A stretch of 64,000 nucleotides of DNA from Devriesea agamarum. GTDB taxonomy: Bacteria; Actinomycetota; Actinomycetes; Actinomycetales; Dermabacteraceae. Positions 2,845-12,095 of the stretch are shown here, in pieces. The DNA is taken from the NCBI RefSeq assembly GCF_900070355.1, contig NZ_LN849456.1, forward strand, positions 620,001-684,000. The letters run 5' to 3'. Numbering within the stretch: the stretch's first letter is position 1; each line of letters starts with the position of its first letter. Made by a program: the position numbers and the translations under genes. Below the pieces are notes generated by a model that saw nothing but the letters and a program-made list of their open reading frames with translations, ran no database searches and had not been told where the DNA came from.

Positions 2845-2873
2845 ATAAAAAAGGCCCGCCAGTAGCGGGCCTT
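2845..2873 (-). terminator. Intrinsic terminator inside the prophage operon
   Basis: Read leftward, a perfect 9-bp stem (AAGGCCCGC/GCGGGCCTT, loop 5 nt) is followed by a run of six T. It would end transcription from the BRO-N-like gene cluster and separate it from the recombination module, unless antiterminated. Confidence 0.85.
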
Positions 2874-2890: not shown

Positions 2891-3229
2891 TTAGTTATCT
2901 CCATCTTTTGGCTTGCGCTCACGGTCCCGAATGCTGTGGATTATCCAATCATCAACCGCCACGAAACGTTGATTAGGTGCATGGCGTGCGGCAAGTCGAA
3001 GACCGGCCAAGGTTAGGGAGGTTTTATTTACGTAGTCATCTCCATGTTCCCAGCGCTTCCTCTCAGTATGCTGGACTCCAACAACCCTTAACAGAACACT
3101 GGTGTCGCTATAGCCGTAAGCTTCGGCGACGTCTCCCAAGTGAAACCACGCCTCGAAAGTCTGATCGTCGATAATCGCACGAATCGGCTTGTCGCTTTCG
3201 GGGATATATTTAGTCGTCTCGAATCGCAT
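2891..3229 (-). CDS. BRO-N-like small phage protein
   Basis: A 112-residue protein with the start of a BRO-N/antirepressor-like domain: IRAIIDDQTFEAWFHLGDVAEAYGYSD fits the hydrophobic-turn-WF-x-x-x-DVA-x-x-x-GY pattern. It is broken here only by a slightly longer turn. After it come SVLLRVVGVQHTE and a C-terminal helix with DDWIIHSIRDRERK, corresponding to the f-x-x-W helix that closes BRO-N domains. It lacks a second (KilA-C/ANT) domain. It is the last gene before the terminator at 2845-2873. BRO-N proteins usually bind DNA or repressors; the role of this stand-alone half is unknown. Confidence 0.6.
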   Translation of the reverse strand: MRFETTKYIPESDKPIRAIIDDQTFEAWFHLGDVAEAYGYSDTSVLLRVVGVQHTERKRWEHGDDYVNKTSLTLAGLRLAARHAPNQRFVAVDDWIIHSIRDRERKPKDGDN

Positions 3230-3232
3230 TTC

Positions 3233-3688
3233 TCAAATCTCCCTCTCAACGCGCTTGTCTTCAGTGGTGTTGCATTCTGTGTTTTCGTGCGAGTTTTTTA
3301 GAAAACTTTTTAATTCCGCCGCGTGTAAAATAATTGCGACAGCCTCTTCTAGCTCTAAGTCTGTACTGGCAAGGGCGGGGATCAGGTTGTGGGTAAACGC
3401 CCTTCTAAAATCCCTGGCTTCAGGATGAGTGGAACAGAGTTGGGCAGAAAGCATACCCTCTATGGATACTAAAACACCATCTCCATTTACCCCTTCAGCA
3501 AATCGTGTGTAATCGACGTCGTATTCATCGTCATCCAGCATTTCCAGCAAATCGTTTCGACTGTCATAGTCGAGCGCTTTATACAAGTCAGCCGCTTCGA
3601 CTAGTTGCTTGCCGCTCTCTAAATCTTGGTAGGCACGCATATTATGTCCGTGCAATTCATACGGCTCAATCTCTTTATATTCAGTCAT
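3233..3688 (-). CDS. Phage BRO-N-like protein, divergent
   Basis: A 151-residue acidic protein. Its layout recalls phage antirepressor N-terminal domains: GKQLVEAADLYKALDYDSR (the element followed by L-x-Y), DVDYTRFAEGV, then VLVSIEGMLSAQLCSTHPEA and ARDFRRAFTHNLIPAL, matching the W/F-x-x-x-x-h-P closing helix (RDFRRAFTHNLIPAL). A 45-residue charged tail follows. It lies three bases upstream of the next BRO-N-like gene. Assignment is by pattern; the function is unknown. Confidence 0.55.
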   Translation of the reverse strand: MTEYKEIEPYELHGHNMRAYQDLESGKQLVEAADLYKALDYDSRNDLLEMLDDDEYDVDYTRFAEGVNGDGVLVSIEGMLSAQLCSTHPEARDFRRAFTHNLIPALASTDLELEEAVAIILHAAELKSFLKNSHENTECNTTEDKRVEREI

Positions 3689-4251: not shown

Positions 4252-4590
4252 TTAAAAGAATTTCAGATCGTTATCGAGGCACCAGTCTTCGATATCGTAA
4301 ACAAGATTTCTTGGGCCATATTCAAGTAGTCTGCTATGATGGTCGTCAGGCAAGTCTTTAAAGAAATTGTAAACAGCTTCCGCCGTCACAAAGACCCTTA
4401 ATCCGTGACGCTTTGTTTTTATGAGGCAGACCTCCTCCTTGGCGGCATGTTGATAAACCTTGTGGTCGGGCTTCACTCGTGCGTGACGCGCAATATCTTC
4501 AGCCATGAACCAGGCTTGCCCTTCGTTATCTATGAAGGCATCTAGGTTCCAGGGAGCATTTTCAACCCCGGCTTCTTCGCAGGTTTTCAT
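4252..4590 (-). CDS. BRO-N-like small phage protein (array member)
   Basis: A 112-residue protein. FIDNEGQAWFMAEDIARHAR matches the BRO-N core (turn, WF-x-A-x-D-I/V-A), then VYQHAAKEEVCLIK, LRVFVTAEAVYNFFKDL and a closing helix LVYDIEDWCLDNDLKFF. It keeps the order of elements seen in the three genes upstream but is the most divergent of the four. ATG at 4590 overlaps the previous stop (ATGA), with AAGGAG eight bases before. No DNA-binding C-terminal domain is attached. Function unknown. Confidence 0.65.
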   Translation of the reverse strand: MKTCEEAGVENAPWNLDAFIDNEGQAWFMAEDIARHARVKPDHKVYQHAAKEEVCLIKTKRHGLRVFVTAEAVYNFFKDLPDDHHSRLLEYGPRNLVYDIEDWCLDNDLKFF

Positions 4591-4901
4591 CCCAGTTTCT
4601 CCTTACACCATTTTTCGATTGCATTTATGATCTTCTTGCAATCTCTATCCACGGTGCATCCGATGGCGTCGCGGAGGGCTTCAAGGGTTGCCCGTTTACT
4701 TATAAGCACTCGCGCACCGTAAGCTTCCGCAAGACAAATATCATCATCTAGGAGATCGTGATAAACGCTGCTTGCATAGTAGTACTCAGCGCAAATAGCA
4801 ATACCTTCGACATCAAACCATGGTTTATTGTCATCATCTAGGGCGACAAATATGCTGACATTATCAACATTGAGCAGGTCGCACGGTGACATTTTCTTCA
4901 T
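4587..4901 (-). CDS. BRO-N-like small phage protein (array member)
   Basis: A 104-residue protein. The start at 4901 is chosen because ATG overlaps the previous stop (ATGA) and has GAGGAG upstream. The core VALDDDNKPWFDVEGIAICA is followed by DDDICLAEAYGARVLISKRA, then an amphipathic helix and the closing motif IINAIEKWCKEKLG. It is a clear paralogue of the two genes upstream; the DDDNKPWFD and IEKWC motifs are nearly identical. It has an acidic first half. No second domain. Confidence 0.7.
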   Translation of the reverse strand: MKKMSPCDLLNVDNVSIFVALDDDNKPWFDVEGIAICAEYYYASSVYHDLLDDDICLAEAYGARVLISKRATLEALRDAIGCTVDRDCKKIINAIEKWCKEKLG

Positions 4902-5221
4902 CCCAGATTCTCCTCGCACCATTTTTCGATTGCCTTTATTGCTTCCTTACAATCGATCCTCTCGGAGTACTCAATGCCGTCAGTAAGGAGTTCAAGGGTT
5001 TCCCACTTACTGATGAAAACTTGCTTATCCCCACCTGGCCCATACTTAGCAAAGCAAACATCTTCGTCTGGAAGATCCCTGTACATTTCGGACGCATAGA
5101 GGTACTCAAGGCAGTAAGCGATATCGTCAGCGTCAAACCACGGTTTATTATCGTCGTCTACGGCGACCGTGATTTCGATGTTACGTATCCTAATCTCGTC
5201 CCACCACTGCATTATATTCAT
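4898..5221 (-). CDS. BRO-N-like small phage protein (array member)
   Basis: A 107-residue paralogue: VAVDDDNKPWFDADDIAYCL, then LPDEDVCFAKYGPGGDKQVF, ISKWETLELL and AIKAIEKWCEENLG. ATG at 5221 overlaps the upstream stop (ATGA) and has AAGGAG upstream. Compared with its neighbours the variable positions fall in the loop after the DVC motif, and the WF and IEKWC anchors stay fixed. This suggests a conserved fold with diversified surface. Confidence 0.7.
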   Translation of the reverse strand: MNIMQWWDEIRIRNIEITVAVDDDNKPWFDADDIAYCLEYLYASEMYRDLPDEDVCFAKYGPGGDKQVFISKWETLELLTDGIEYSERIDCKEAIKAIEKWCEENLG

Positions 5222-5544
5222 TTTAAGTTCTCCTTGCACCACTTTTCGATTTCTTTTATCATTTTCTCGCAGTCGCTGTATTTAGCGTGCCCGACGGCTT
5301 CGTGAAGCACATCGAGGGTAACCCGCTTGCTTATAAGCACTCGCTTCCATTCGTCATCACCAACTTTCGCAAGACAAACATCTTCGTCCGGAAGATCACA
5401 GTAGAGATCGGGTGCTCCGGGAGCATATTCGGCATAATTGGCAACGTCTTCGGCGTCGAACCACAGTTTATTGTCGTCGTCTATGGCAACCTCGATGCCG
5501 GGAAATGGCGTCCCGATACTGTCATTCCGTTGCATTTTTTTCAT
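5218..5544 (-). CDS. BRO-N-like small phage protein (array member)
   Basis: A 108-residue paralogue and probably the first of the coupled array: VAIDDDNKLWFDAEDVANYA, DLPDEDVCLAKVGDDEW, VLISKRVTLDVL and MIKEIEKWCKENLK. ATG at 5544 has AAAGGAC upstream. The next three genes follow through ATGA overlaps, so the four are likely made in similar amounts. The DDDNK-x-WFDAEDVA element is close to the first strand-turn-helix of BRO-N domains in phage antirepressors. Confidence 0.7.
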   Translation of the reverse strand: MKKMQRNDSIGTPFPGIEVAIDDDNKLWFDAEDVANYAEYAPGAPDLYCDLPDEDVCLAKVGDDEWKRVLISKRVTLDVLHEAVGHAKYSDCEKMIKEIEKWCKENLK

Positions 5545-5582: not shown

Positions 5583-5819
5583 TTAATGAAGCGGCTGCAG
5601 TTCATCCGCGCCACCCTCTTCCTTGCTGTAGACATCGGCGAGAACACGTTCTATCGCTTCTTGTGCGGTTGGGTCGTCAACCAGGGGCGGCACATAGTCG
5701 CCGTCCCATATCGCGTGACAAATGCGGGCCAGGCGGTGAACTTTTCGCGCCGACAAGTGTGCACCCATGTCTTGCGCGACCTCCTGAATCATGCGCTTTG
5801 TTTCCACGAAATCAGGCAT
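5583..5819 (-). CDS. Small helical phage protein, unknown
   Basis: A 78-residue, predominantly helical acidic protein (VETKRMIQEVAQDMGAHLSA, then AQEAIERVLADVYSKEEG). ATG at 5819 has AGGGG eight bases upstream. It precedes the BRO-N-like array by about 40 bases and follows the antirepressor gene. No family is recognised. Confidence 0.55.
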   Translation of the reverse strand: MPDFVETKRMIQEVAQDMGAHLSARKVHRLARICHAIWDGDYVPPLVDDPTAQEAIERVLADVYSKEEGGADELQPLH

Positions 5820-5882: not shown

Positions 5883-6698
5883 TTAGGCGGCGCTTATATT
5901 GAGGCGGCCCGATAAGAACCGGTCAATAAAATACGCCTGCCCCTTCCCAGTGACTTTCGGTGTGCGGTTCACCGTGACGTGGCCATCCGAATGCGTCACC
6001 GCCGTCTCCTTAATCTTGAACAAGCCAAGGTCCATTGCTTTTTGTGTCGGACTATTCCAATCAGAACCCTTACGACTGACCAGGTAGCCGTGCTTGCGAA
6101 GGACTGAGAACAACCTGGTCGCACCGATGTCAATACCGTTACCCCGCAGAATCTTCGCGAGATCACCGACAAGGATCGTTGAATCTGACATACTCACCGC
6201 ATCAGCGAACAAGACTTTCGGCGCGTCACGCATGGCCTTCTCTTCAAGTGCGGCACGAGCCGCGCGCTCCTCCTTGATCTGTTGAAGTAGTCGGATCGCC
6301 ATGTCTGGGTCAGAGAGCATCGCATCCACAGCGTCAGGGGTTGCGTACATGCCGTGGCGACGAACCGAGGGAAGGACGTCAGAGAAAACCCATGCCTGGA
6401 ACCGTTCGACCTGGGCGCGCATAGCCGGGTCTTTGATTCGTGCTGGCTGCCGGCGGCCTATCGCGTGATAGAACCCGGCCTCCGTCAAGTACCAGACTTT
6501 TTGAGGTCCGCCGGGGGTCTCCGCCGTCGTGTAACCCTTCTGGTCTGCGGGAATGCTCTCCGTGAGACGAAAAGCATCTCGAAAGCCCAACGCTTTCGCC
6601 AGCGATGAGGCAATAACGATGAAGCCGTGTTCAGCGGACGGCATGATGCTTAGCTCGAACTCGCCGGACGAGAACAGGGTGGGGGTATTGGTCGTCAT
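5883..6698 (-). CDS. Phage antirepressor with BRO-N and KilA-C (ANT) domains
   Basis: A 271-residue protein. The N-terminal BRO-N domain (residues ~5-115) shows VIASSLAKALGFRDAFR, YLTEAGFYHAIGRRQPARIK and FQAWVFSDVLPSVRRHGMYA, the diagnostic W-V-x-x-x-VLP-x-h-R-x-x-G-Y block. A short coiled stretch follows (LLQQIKEERAARAALEEKA). The C-terminal ANT/KilA-C domain follows with VGDLAKILRGNGIDIGATRL, FSVLRKHGYLV and KVTGKGQAYFIDRFLSG. Such proteins interfere with the phage repressor or bind DNA to promote lytic growth. The start at 6698 overlaps the previous stop (ATGA). This is the only full-length member among the BRO-N-like genes here and may be their source. Confidence 0.9.
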   Translation of the reverse strand: MTTNTPTLFSSGEFELSIMPSAEHGFIVIASSLAKALGFRDAFRLTESIPADQKGYTTAETPGGPQKVWYLTEAGFYHAIGRRQPARIKDPAMRAQVERFQAWVFSDVLPSVRRHGMYATPDAVDAMLSDPDMAIRLLQQIKEERAARAALEEKAMRDAPKVLFADAVSMSDSTILVGDLAKILRGNGIDIGATRLFSVLRKHGYLVSRKGSDWNSPTQKAMDLGLFKIKETAVTHSDGHVTVNRTPKVTGKGQAYFIDRFLSGRLNISAA

Positions 6699-6931
6699 GA
6701 CGCACCACCGCACGTCACGACGGACTTGCGGGAACAAGCACTGCCTGCTACCATAGCTGGACTCCTTAGGGGAGTATGAGTCACGTCGGGGTTATCTGCC
6801 AAGACATGTCCGGCGTGGCTCTTTTTTGAGGACATAACGCGGCCCGTAAAGGTAGCGTTATGGGTTGACGAGGCCCTGGACATCTGCATTGTCTGGGGTC
6901 CGCTTTCGTTGTATCCCATTGTAGCATTCAT
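6695..6931 (-). CDS. Small Ser/Thr-rich phage protein, unknown
   Basis: A 78-residue polar protein rich in Ser, Thr, His and Met with two late Cys. The composition is odd, but the context supports translation. ATG at 6931 has GAGGAC seven bases upstream and lies two bases after the previous gene's stop, and its own TGA overlaps the antirepressor ATG. It may serve mainly as a coupling reading frame for the antirepressor. No family is recognised. Confidence 0.5.
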   Translation of the reverse strand: MNATMGYNESGPQTMQMSRASSTHNATFTGRVMSSKKSHAGHVLADNPDVTHTPLRSPAMVAGSACSRKSVVTCGGAS

Positions 6932-6933
6932 GG

Positions 6934-7344
6934 TCAGTCCTCAGTGGCTTTCGGCTTGTTTTCTTTGGAAATTTTTTCGTAATGCTTATGCACGAAGTAC
7001 GTGAGGTAGTAATTAACCATCACCCCACTCTCTAGCAGGACCTCGGCAATTGGATCGTCTAAGCAGCCTATTGCGGGGGGCTTCATTTTCTGAATTTCGT
7101 CGCTGTGCATATTGCGAGCCGCCGAGAGCATGACGTCTTGGGTTATAAAAACTCCAGCGCACACTTCTCCGCTTCCGACATAAGCTTTCACCGACCAACC
7201 TTCGATACCTAGGACGGCGAGCATATTTTCGGCATACCCGTAGCCGAATGCGCTAGCGACATCTGAAGCTAAATACAGGTACTTGTCGCCGGTCCGAATG
7301 TATCGGATATTGACACCTTCAAGCTCTGGAACCTCAATCTTCAT
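6934..7344 (-). CDS. BRO-N-like phage protein
   Basis: A 136-residue protein. VNIRYIRTGDKYLYLASDVA followed by SAFGYGYAENMLAVLG fits the BRO-N start (turn, aromatic pair, DVA-x-x-FGY) better than the shorter paralogues. VFITQDVMLSAARNM corresponds to the next strand-helix. The C-terminal helix (VNYYLTYFVHKHYEKISKEN) is longer than in the 100-residue members. ATG at 7344 has AAAGGGA upstream. No KilA-C domain. Probably related by duplication to the antirepressor family; role unknown. Confidence 0.6.
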   Translation of the reverse strand: MKIEVPELEGVNIRYIRTGDKYLYLASDVASAFGYGYAENMLAVLGIEGWSVKAYVGSGEVCAGVFITQDVMLSAARNMHSDEIQKMKPPAIGCLDDPIAEVLLESGVMVNYYLTYFVHKHYEKISKENKPKATED

Positions 7345-7400: not shown

Positions 7401-7688
7401 TCAGTCGTTCCGCTCTGCGCCACACAGAACACACCTATGCGTATGACTCTGAAGGGCCTCTTGGATATTCCGTAGAAACGCAGACTCCCGAATGAGGCCA
7501 CTGTCGTGACTTATACCCTTGTTATCGCCTACGGGACGCACATCATCCCAACCGTTTTTCACATCAAAGCCTGGAGGTGCCACGCTAAATATATCTTCAA
7601 GCGCTTCGGGAAATAGGTACCACCTATCGCCATCCTCGCCCATAATCCACCTTGCCGTAGGAGTGATTTCTAACCTGCCGATTTTCAT
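7401..7688 (-). CDS. Small phage protein, paralogue of the next gene upstream
   Basis: A 95-residue protein starting MKIGRLEITPTARWIMGEDG, then RWYLFPEALEDIF and a central Gly/Asp loop. A motif LIRESAFLRNIQEAL is shared almost exactly with the gene at 7721-7987. The C-terminus ends in CVLCGAERND, half of a zinc knuckle. ATG at 7688 has AAAGGAAG upstream. The front half (residue pair WY before a helix) is compatible with a degenerate BRO-N start, but this is weak. Confidence 0.6.
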   Translation of the reverse strand: MKIGRLEITPTARWIMGEDGDRWYLFPEALEDIFSVAPPGFDVKNGWDDVRPVGDNKGISHDSGLIRESAFLRNIQEALQSHTHRCVLCGAERND

Positions 7689-7720: not shown

Positions 7721-7987
7721 TTACGCCAGATTGCGGGACATAGAGTACGAGAGCTCTTCGCCAAGCATTCTTAGAAATGCAGATTCTCGAATGAGGGCGA
7801 CAGGGAGGGGGAACTCTTGAACCCAATCTTCTTTGCATATGTCCTCTGGATAGACGGACGCTACCCCCTTACCGCCTGACATGCTAGCCAAATCTTTGCG
7901 CACCTCGTCTAGGTCATACCATCTAACCCCGTCCTCCTCTACGAATGGTGCCGCCGTCGTTTTAATTTCTATGTTGCCGATCTTCAT
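7721..7987 (-). CDS. Small phage protein, paralogue of the gene downstream
   Basis: An 88-residue protein starting MKIGNIEIKTTAAPFVEEDG with RWYDLDEVRKDLASM and the shared LIRESAFLRMLGEEL motif. Of two adjacent ATGs (7990, 7987) the second is better spaced from AAAGGGAG, and it aligns with the MKIG start of its paralogue. A small upstream ORF ends in a TGA that overlaps this start. Function unknown. Confidence 0.6.
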   Translation of the reverse strand: MKIGNIEIKTTAAPFVEEDGVRWYDLDEVRKDLASMSGGKGVASVYPEDICKEDWVQEFPLPVALIRESAFLRMLGEELSYSMSRNLA

Positions 7988-10267: not shown

Positions 10268-11463
10268 ACCGTCACCCCCGCCACGAGGGTACTGAAGCGC
10301 CGCAGGGTGGAAAGAACGTGCGCACGTCGGGCGGTTGAACACCTGAACCACGGCAGGCCCGCAGCCTTTCCCGCCACACGGGTCTTGTATAGCTTGCGCG
10401 TCACCCGAACCGTGCGCACGTCTGAAGGACAGGCTACATCGGCATGGGTGTGAGGGTGTGAAAAATGAGGGTAAGGCATCGTAGCCTCCGTGTAATGGAG
10501 TTCGTTCAGCGGGGCGTGAGATGTCTTGTTCAAGGACTGCTCACGCCGGGTGCTTGAACACCGGCCATTACCCCGGCCCGCCGCCTTCCCCGCAAAGCGG
10601 GTCTTGTATAGCGGTCGCGCCACCCGGCTACAAGTAGCCATAGGAAAGGCCGCATTAGGAGCGACGGGCCTGTAATGGTCGGTGTGTTCAGCACCTACCG
10701 CAGAGCGTAGCACCCCATCTCCGGCAGCGCAAGATGAGTCATGGCGTGCGGCATCGTTGGACACACGTGAGATGTGGGCGCCAGCAGACGCAGACGGCGC
10801 GCTGAGGTGCGAGAAAGTGGGGACAGGCATCGTAGCCTCCGAGATCTTGTTCTTTTCGTTCAGGGGCGCATCCTCGTTGTTCAGGCGAGGAGAACGCCGG
10901 GTACTTGAACACCCGGAACAAGTCGGGCCCGCCGCCTTCCCCCGCGTTGCGGGGTCTTGTATAGCGTGCGCGCTACCCGGCTTCCCAAAAGGAAGCCATA
11001 GAAAACGCCGCGCTTCGGGGCGACGGAACCGCTTGTTCTTGGTGTGTTCAGCACCTGCCACAGACCGTAGCACCCCATCTCCGGCAGCGCAAGATGAGTC
11101 ATGGCGTGCGGCATCGTTGGACACACGTGAGATGTGGGCACCAGCAGACGCAGACGGCGCGCTGAGGTGCGAGAAAGTGGGGTAAGGCATCGTAGCCTCC
11201 AGGGTGTCGTTTTTTCGTTCACAGACGCCGCCCTGTTGTTCAGGCAGAGAGACGCCGGGTACTTGAACACCCGAAACGACACGGGCCCGCCGCCTTCCCC
11301 CGCGTTGCGGGGTCTTGTATAGCGTGCGCGCTACCCGGCTTCCCAAAAGGAAGCCAAAGAAAACGCCGCGCTTCGGGGCGACGGATCCGGTCGTTTGGGT
11401 GTGTTCAGCACCTGTCACAGACCGTAGCACCCCCTCGCGGACGTTGCAAGACATGGAAGCCAT
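10264..11463 (-). CDS. Tandem-repeat reading frame of the prophage (399 codons)
   Basis: One uninterrupted frame across all copies of the ~360-bp repeat. It starts at ATG 11463, which overlaps the HTH gene stop (TAATG) with GAGGAG just upstream, and ends in a TGA overlapped by the next gene's GTG. Coupling at both ends argues that it is translated. Each unit begins with its own GGAGG-ctacg-ATG and reads MP-x-PTFSHLSAPSAS, AHISRVSNDAARHDSSCAAG and DGVLRS. Some units then continue SRVAR-x-LYKT followed by GKAAG and RCSSTRR. The product is basic, Ser/Arg-rich and does not look globular. Small indels shift the frame in the middle of units and are compensated. No family is recognised. Confidence 0.5.
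   Translation of the reverse strand: MASMSCNVREGVLRSVTGAEHTQTTGSVAPKRGVFFGFLLGSRVARTLYKTPQRGGRRRARVVSGVQVPGVSLPEQQGGVCERKNDTLEATMPYPTFSHLSAPSASAGAHISRVSNDAARHDSSCAAGDGVLRSVAGAEHTKNKRFRRPEARRFLWLPFGKPGSAHAIQDPATRGKAAGPTCSGCSSTRRSPRLNNEDAPLNEKNKISEATMPVPTFSHLSAPSASAGAHISRVSNDAARHDSSCAAGDGVLRSAVGAEHTDHYRPVAPNAAFPMATCSRVARPLYKTRFAGKAAGRGNGRCSSTRREQSLNKTSHAPLNELHYTEATMPYPHFSHPHTHADVACPSDVRTVRVTRKLYKTRVAGKAAGLPWFRCSTARRAHVLSTLRRFSTLVAGVTV
10264..11463 (-). repeat. Three to four imperfect ~360-bp direct repeats
   Basis: Units as read leftward: 11463-11191 (5'-truncated), 11190-10831 (360 bp), 10830-10480 (351 bp) and 10479-10264 (degenerate). Units are marked by GGCATCGTAGCCTCC on the + strand at 10476-10490, 10827-10840 and 11187-11200. 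Four copies of CGGGTCTTGTATAGC or a close variant occur. Two units carry a perfect hairpin, GGCTTCC-CAAAA-GGAAGCC, next to CGCGCTTCGGGGCG. The unit spacings are multiples of three. Confidence 0.9.
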
Positions 11464-11792: not shown

Positions 11793-12095
11793 ATGACTGT
11801 TGATGCTGCATTGGGGAACATCCCTCAGATAACCAAGGCTGTGCGTCTACGCCTAGCCAGGGAACATGCTGGCCTTGAACAGGCTGAACTCGCCGAACGG
11901 ATCGGCGCGTCTCGTCGAACGATAGGGTCAGCAGAGCGTGGTGAGCGCGATCCTAGGAGAACGCTAGTAATGGCATGGGCACTCGCAACTGGCGTGCCGT
12001 TGCAGTGGATAGAAACAGGAAGGGTCCCGTCACCTGATGGCGACGGGACCCATATGCTCCCGCGGTTGGACTCGAACCAACAACCGTTCGATTAA
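11793..12095 (+). CDS. XRE-family repressor-like protein running into tRNA-Asn
   Basis: A 100-residue protein with a clear HTH_3 domain: RLRLAREHAGLEQAELAERI, GASRRTIGSAERGERDPRR and ALATGVPLQWIETG. It is divergent from the leftward operon and is the probable lysogeny repressor or a regulator of it. It is short for a CI-type protein and has no oligomerisation or protease domain. Residues 89-100 (LPRLDSNQQPFD) are encoded by the antisense of the tRNA-Asn gene, so the present C-terminus depends on integration and would differ in the free phage. Confidence 0.75.
   Translation: MTVDAALGNIPQITKAVRLRLAREHAGLEQAELAERIGASRRTIGSAERGERDPRRTLVMAWALATGVPLQWIETGRVPSPDGDGTHMLPRLDSNQQPFD

Follow-up and report, generated by a model that had tools for sequence, protein, structure and literature searches.

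A row of four overlapping, stand-alone Bro-N-like genes, candidate antirepressors, in a prophage of Devriesea agamarum

Bro-N antirepressors are already known from phages, in which an N-terminal Bro-N domain (PF02498) is followed by an ANT (KilAC) domain (PF03374), Gp07 of phage Phi11 being an example. Stand-alone Bro-N proteins of 95-129 aa also exist in phages, as seen in a Foldseek comparison of our structural model with predicted viral structures (BFVD); two of them, A0A8S5LRR7 (95 aa) and C5I626 (113 aa, from Staphylococcus phage phiPVL-CN125), share the Bro-N fold with the proteins described here and are too short to contain an ANT domain (target-length TM-scores of 0.77 and 0.59, at 20% and 15% identity, respectively). 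In addition, the baculoviruses, entomopoxviruses and ascoviruses, which infect insects, carry bro multigene families with many Bro-N paralogues per viral genome, and these families are also found among the fold matches of our model; their products are mostly larger than the proteins described here, and we know of no ATGA-coupled bro array. Regarding function, Bro-Xre pairs were proposed as complex-forming modules in passages of PMC2701414, and the Bro-N domain of Gp07 alone was described, in the part of PMC5944126 that deals with it, as causing just a temporary growth inhibition. The small Salmonella antirepressors of the Gifsy/Fels group (GfoA, GfhA and FsoA) bind non-cleavable repressors, sometimes those of other phages, according to sections of PMC3121763, and a passage of PMC10432266 reports a lysis repressor inactivated by small proteins in other prophages.

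The genes described here are part of the early region in a prophage that measures about 42,055 bp, sits at tRNA-Asn in Devriesea agamarum (Actinomycetales) and is bounded by an 85-bp repeat. Coordinates without a prefix refer to the window, that is, the whole stretch of 64,000 nucleotides that was analysed (contig NZ_LN849456.1, positions 620,001 to 684,000). The att core of 85 bp (12006-12090) is identical to G000:C1:589951-590035, and to the left of the array region the prophage encodes terminase, major head and replication proteins. A ketoacyl-synthase gene of the host has its nearest relatives among actinobacteria of the Micrococcales/Intrasporangiaceae type, a level of resolution above the genus. 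The initial annotation described four adjacent minus-strand genes for proteins of about 105 residues, joined by ATGA overlaps, and both points hold: G1 (5218-5544) codes for 108 aa with a net charge of -9, G2 (4898-5221) for 107 aa (-15), G3 (4587-4901) for 104 aa (-6) and the divergent G4 (4252-4590) for 112 aa (-7), and neighbouring genes are joined by ATGA overlaps at 5218-5221, 4898-4901 and 4587-4590. The same strand carries AAGGAG at 5230-5235, GAGGAG at 4910-4915 and AAGGAG at 4599-4604, within the 3' ends of G1, G2 and G3 and 8 nt ahead of the starts of G2, G3 and G4, respectively. These hexamers are encoded by the codons of a conserved tail, WC(K/E)E(N/K)L, present in each of G1-G3, and G4, the last of the four, has no such Shine-Dalgarno-coding tail. 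With the hexamers so placed, the tail of G1-G3 in all likelihood doubles as a protein segment and as the predicted ribosome-binding site of the following gene. Of the two sequence signatures proposed for the four proteins, the closing IE(K/D)WC is present in all of them; DDDN-K-x-WFD-x-(E/D)D(I/V)A stands in G1 and G2, and fails in G3 (which reads VEGIA) and in G4 (DNEGQAWFMAEDIA). It is this row of four genes, probably coupled in translation, and not the Bro-N antirepressor or the stand-alone phage Bro-N protein, that appears new within the sets surveyed.

The relationship to Bro-N is supported by several comparisons. In Pfam (PF02498, curated cut-off of 25.6 bits) G2, G4 and G1 scored 23.3, 16.7 and 15.5 bits (E 0.011 for G4) and G3 had no match, so that all of them fall under the cut-off. 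Profile-profile alignment (hhalign) of G1-G4 with five canonical Bro-N domains gave a probability of 90.9 and an E of 1.1e-6 over 81 columns, in which the tryptophan of IEKWC pairs with that of FKRWV. Compared singly with a profile built without window members (Z=1000), G2, G4, G1 and G3 gave E values of 2.5e-7, 0.013, 0.15 and 0.24, the best of 3000 shuffled controls reaching 0.32, which makes G1 and G3 marginal when taken alone. An AlphaFold (AF2) model of G2, built with eight window sequences, had a pLDDT of 90.0 and a pTM of 0.84. With this model Foldseek returned 60 BFVD matches at E <= 1e-3. Of the best 50 of these 60, those bearing a name are for the most part labelled Bro-N, BRO, antirepressor or 'repressor domain'; the same tool gave no match in the PDB at E <= 1e-3. 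VIA-align, in which a Z below 8 may reflect just a common arrangement, matched the baculovirus Orf22 domain (Z 10.2, 2.9 A, 95 residues), the KilA-N domain of MBP1 (Z 7.7, 3.3 A, 88 residues) and DdrC (Z 6.4, 3.1 A, 84 residues), and a chain named Bro-N is absent from the matches listed, an absence that is uninformative. Sequence searches of the PDB gave nothing with array alignment A2 and just unrelated weak matches with alignment A4. A truncated Bro-N fold is well supported for G1-G4, by the model of G2 and by profile comparison of the group, in agreement with the initial annotation, which had reckoned with structures unlike Bro-N as the outcome that would speak against it. The four share with the canonical antirepressors the N-terminal Bro-N fold, the W-F pair and the helix W (all kept in G1-G4, with the helix F replaced by I), but differ from them in ending after the Bro-N helix, with no Pfam match to ANT/KilAC, in stopping short of the conserved C-terminal LP-x-I-R-x-x-G segment, in lacking the basic C-terminal end, and in forming a four-gene array. 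They are called here 'Bro-N-like', outside the curated Pfam family, because they lie below its cut-off and lack the C-terminal conserved segment.

A row of four coupled stand-alone Bro-N-like genes is unusual within the sets surveyed, as had been claimed. With G1 as query, G1-G4 were the sole matches in the 2.96 Mb genome. Besides the array itself, a profile of G1-G4 recovered four places when run over 396 genomes of the order. These are in other genomes and fall within frames of 272-367 aa, readable as Bro-N antirepressors (Pfam Bro-N has matches in the same four genomes); the homologues found are full antirepressors and not single-copy genes with an unrelated function. Pattern searches produced 9 stretches for G1 and 270 for alignment A2 in viral contigs, and 235 in genome contigs, none of which was confirmed, and a tblastn search of phages gave nothing credible (best E about 2). 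Pfam Bro-N at E <= 0.01 was found at 40 places in 36 of the 396 genomes, never twice on one contig outside the source genome, and canonical Bro-N was found at 1147 places in 1130 phage records, so that 17 records at most hold more than one. Of the viral loci retrieved with Bro-N or Ant (82 in all, picked by similarity to canonical domains and many of them cut by contig ends), 78 contained one Bro-N-like ORF, three contained two and one contained none. Neither the remaining 395 genomes of the order nor the 1130 phage records with Bro-N nor the 82 viral loci showed a comparable array, with the qualification that Pfam Bro-N recovers just 2 of the 8 genes of the array locus, and divergent arrays elsewhere could be missed. 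No account of such an array was found in the literature searched, which was mainly open-access, and the parts of PMC6145125 on Bro domains describe none.

The array is accompanied by other Bro-N-like genes of the same strand, which is that of the early region. Upstream are a gene for a 78-aa protein with no assigned function (5583-5819, no Pfam match at E <= 0.01) and a full antirepressor, Ant (5883-6701; the listed ORF is 5883-6737, with a TTG start, and the likely start is near 6698), which carries Bro-N (E 1.3e-6) and ANT (E 1.9e-33), as the initial annotation had recognized. Downstream follow genes 3895, 3713, 3233 and 2891, a hairpin, a gene for a RecE-like exonuclease (1340) and recT (483). 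The hairpin (2851-2873, minus strand), directly past gene 2891, has 10 pairs, 7 of them G-C, resembles an intrinsic terminator and matches the consensus, and is the likely end of a transcription unit. The proposal that further relatives lie at 2891 (2891-3229, 112 aa), 3233 (3233-3688, 151 aa, with a C-terminal extension and a net charge of -20) and 6934 (6934-7344, 136 aa) is supported by leave-one-out profiles (Z=1000; E of 1.2e-5, 4.9e-15 and 7.4e-6, with 21.2, 51.5 and 21.9 bits, the best of 200 shuffles each reaching 6.7 bits), though with Pfam Bro-N (E of 0.012, 0.0012 and 0.095) all three are below the cut-off. Genes 2891 and 6934 had no phage matches. For 3233 there were four weak phage matches, three carrying the annotation antirepressor and the fourth KilAC domain antirepressor, and viral contigs gave nothing. 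Two small minus-strand genes (7401-7688 and 7721-7987), whose products are 41% identical and have LIRESAFLR in common, are tentatively Bro-N-like: sequence-profile comparisons were negative, and a low-confidence model built from the two sequences (pLDDT 71.1) gave many Bro matches in Foldseek, the best at E 0.013 and none at E <= 0.001. Relatives of the RecE-like exonuclease are found in 195 phage records; Hirko, Jinkies, BIM BV-113 and Kukla have the order exonuclease, RecT, SSB, and neither Bro-N nor antirepressor figures in the gene annotation of that stretch. Promoter-like sites (9 found, 6.4 expected) were not used. Repeated terminator-like hairpins occur in a tandem repeat (10543-11433; 2.5 copies with a 360-bp period, 86% matches) that separates the early genes from the repressor side.

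The prophage also carries five XRE repressors. One of them, R0 (11793-12095, plus strand; HTH_3 E 3e-12), reaches into the att core with its 3' end, and codes for 100 aa in the integrated form and for 127 aa in the circular form, which is 27 aa longer and ends in VAA. An att core inside the repressor gene, a shorter integrated product and a tag-like AA end are the layout of integration-dependent immunity as set out in a section of PMC9934374, and by this gene layout R0 would be a repressor of that type, its tagged form being predicted to be unstable and its integrated form to be stable and to give immunity. The tails of R0 relatives in other genomes and viral contigs are mostly alanine-rich or, like LDSNQQP and KGFEPLTF, look tRNA-derived. 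The other four, R1-R4, are tandem XRE genes of 81-89 aa (L011:11010-12117, that is, G000:C1:591010-592117), 43-54% identical to R0 and adjoining the integrase gene (L011:10129-10920). Among R0-R4, pN was 0.27-0.47 and pS 0.73-0.83. R2 has relatives in 188 phage records, at a single place in each, and in the 396 genomes no other cluster of strong XRE matches like R1-R4 was present among the matches listed. When the prophage was searched for operator motifs shared with the R0 promoter region, six 13-mer near-matches came up elsewhere in it, with no pattern. On the host side of the left att, an apparently start-less XRE remnant (L011:9786-10121, G000:C1:589756-590034), 76% identical to R0, is fused to the prophage's tag-coding end and may be what is left of an earlier related element. 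A Fic-family protein (L011:12314-13552; PADLOC SoFic E 2.2e-53) adjoins the XRE array and is a possible prophage defence gene.

We tentatively propose, as a plausible reading that stays short of probable, that G1-G4 are tandem, truncated Bro-N antirepressors, translationally coupled and contacting XRE-type phage repressors, each copy being tuned to a different partner. Binding to repressors is preferred because the prophage carries five XRE repressors, four of them in tandem, and these also give circumstantial support to repressors of rival phages as targets. The position of the array downstream of a canonical Ant, on the early-region strand, with the hairpin past 2891 and exonuclease and RecT beyond, was counted in favour of an antirepressor. 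Tandem duplication, truncation and divergence of a Bro-N domain would have given four genes lacking the ANT half; their products, probably expressed from an operon and made together in the early lytic phase through translational coupling, may contact, protein to protein, the XRE-type repressors of the prophage itself and of competing phages. Should every copy be matched to a different partner, a single transcript would give a mixture of antirepressors. The proposed logic is that of GfoA, GfhA and FsoA, and the likeness lies in that described logic, binding by G1-G4 being putative; no array is described in the parts of PMC3121763 on these proteins.

A different role, which we regard as unlikely, would be the modulation of Ant, in which free Bro-N domains form mixed oligomers with it and dampen or retune its activity. 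The array lies directly downstream of Ant on its strand and has in common with it the Bro-N fold of the Ant N-terminal domain, but this domain is more canonical (87.9 bits, versus 7.2-26.5 for the array members) and just 13% identical to G2 in the alignment, and a dominant-negative role would not need four diverged copies.

Improbable as well is that G1-G4 are DNA-binding regulators of the Bro-N/KilA-N kind that compete for operators. VIA-align does put the MBP1 KilA-N domain and DdrC near the fold, below Orf22, but both have Z under 8, and the charged residues speak otherwise. In comparison with 85 canonical Bro-N domains from viral and genome loci, the first conserved basic position (R/K in 99% of them) is E, T, F and D in G1, G2, G3 and G4, the second (K in 89%) is V, V, I and V, and the third (K in 85%) is E in all four. 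The loss of these positions, together with the missing basic C-terminal end and the negative net charges of the four proteins, argues against canonical DNA binding, as far as sequence can tell. The four also differ in acidity: in the shared columns G2 has a net charge of -11, outside the canonical range (0 of the 85 domains are at or below it), G1 has -7 and G3 has -6, in its low tail (2/85 and 5/85), and G4 has an ordinary -2 (31/85), and 4-20% of 50 small phage background proteins match G1-G4 in acidity. An earlier comparison placing all four members below a canonical range of -5 to +2 (86 domains, counted after leaving out the genome of the window and all pieces shorter than 80 residues) was discarded as overstated, as it set whole proteins against domain pieces.

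It also seems rather unlikely that the array is an anti-defence or host-takeover set binding host defence or regulatory proteins. Such a set could be expected from the early-region position, the small acidic proteins, their diversification and their orphan status, but PADLOC matched none of G1-G4 and no Bro-N precedent of this kind was found in the literature searched.

The four copies have diverged. G2 and G3 are 50% and 53% identical to G1, and G4 about 26-28%; direct DNA repeats spaced by 311-323 nt tie G1-G3 together, the two longest families being 72-75% identical. For pairs of G1-G3, pN is 0.28-0.29 and pS is 0.61-0.76, with synonymous change saturated. These proportions are quoted since dS was infinite for two of the six array pairs (G1-G2 and G2-G4); the finite dN/dS ratios are 0.19-0.53, the highest being that of G1 with G4. 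Judged by these values, G1-G3 are old duplicates maintained as proteins, because an identity of about 50% goes together with saturated synonymous change and low pN. That the array arose by duplication of an antirepressor fragment and is now neutral or in decay, as its truncated C-termini and its G+C (45-48%, versus 57% in Ant and 60% in gene 3895) could suggest, is thus very unlikely, given four open frames, coupling signals kept at every junction, and the low pN among G1-G3.

Returning to the reading of G1-G4 as antirepressors of XRE-type repressors, an extended form of it would join the expanded XRE set (R0 and R1-R4) and the coupled Bro-N set into a matched, combinatorial immunity kit, tuned one to one, which we consider doubtful. 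The nearest fetched relatives of R0 have one XRE gene of the R0 type (a weaker second one in 1 of 12 viral loci) and no Bro-N-like ORF in the available stretch. In another genome of the family (G044:C27, around 160690-162040; L186/L187) an att-type repressor and a small XRE paralogue lie 0.7 kb apart, and the 40 kb examined contain no Bro-N-like ORF, so that a Bro-N array is not a necessary companion of extra XRE genes; these cases count against the preferred reading of G1-G4 as such. If such a kit were true, the prophage could hold immunity to several phage types as a lysogen, and the phage could overrun several immunities when infecting. Bro-N is widespread in viral regulators, one canonical copy matching 1130 phage records, and the literature consulted says little on Bro-N without ANT. 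Four coupled, diverged copies beside a full antirepressor and five XRE repressors make a compact setting for mapping partner specificity directly and, if the pairing is real, the phage would widen both immunity and counter-immunity by duplicating two small gene families.
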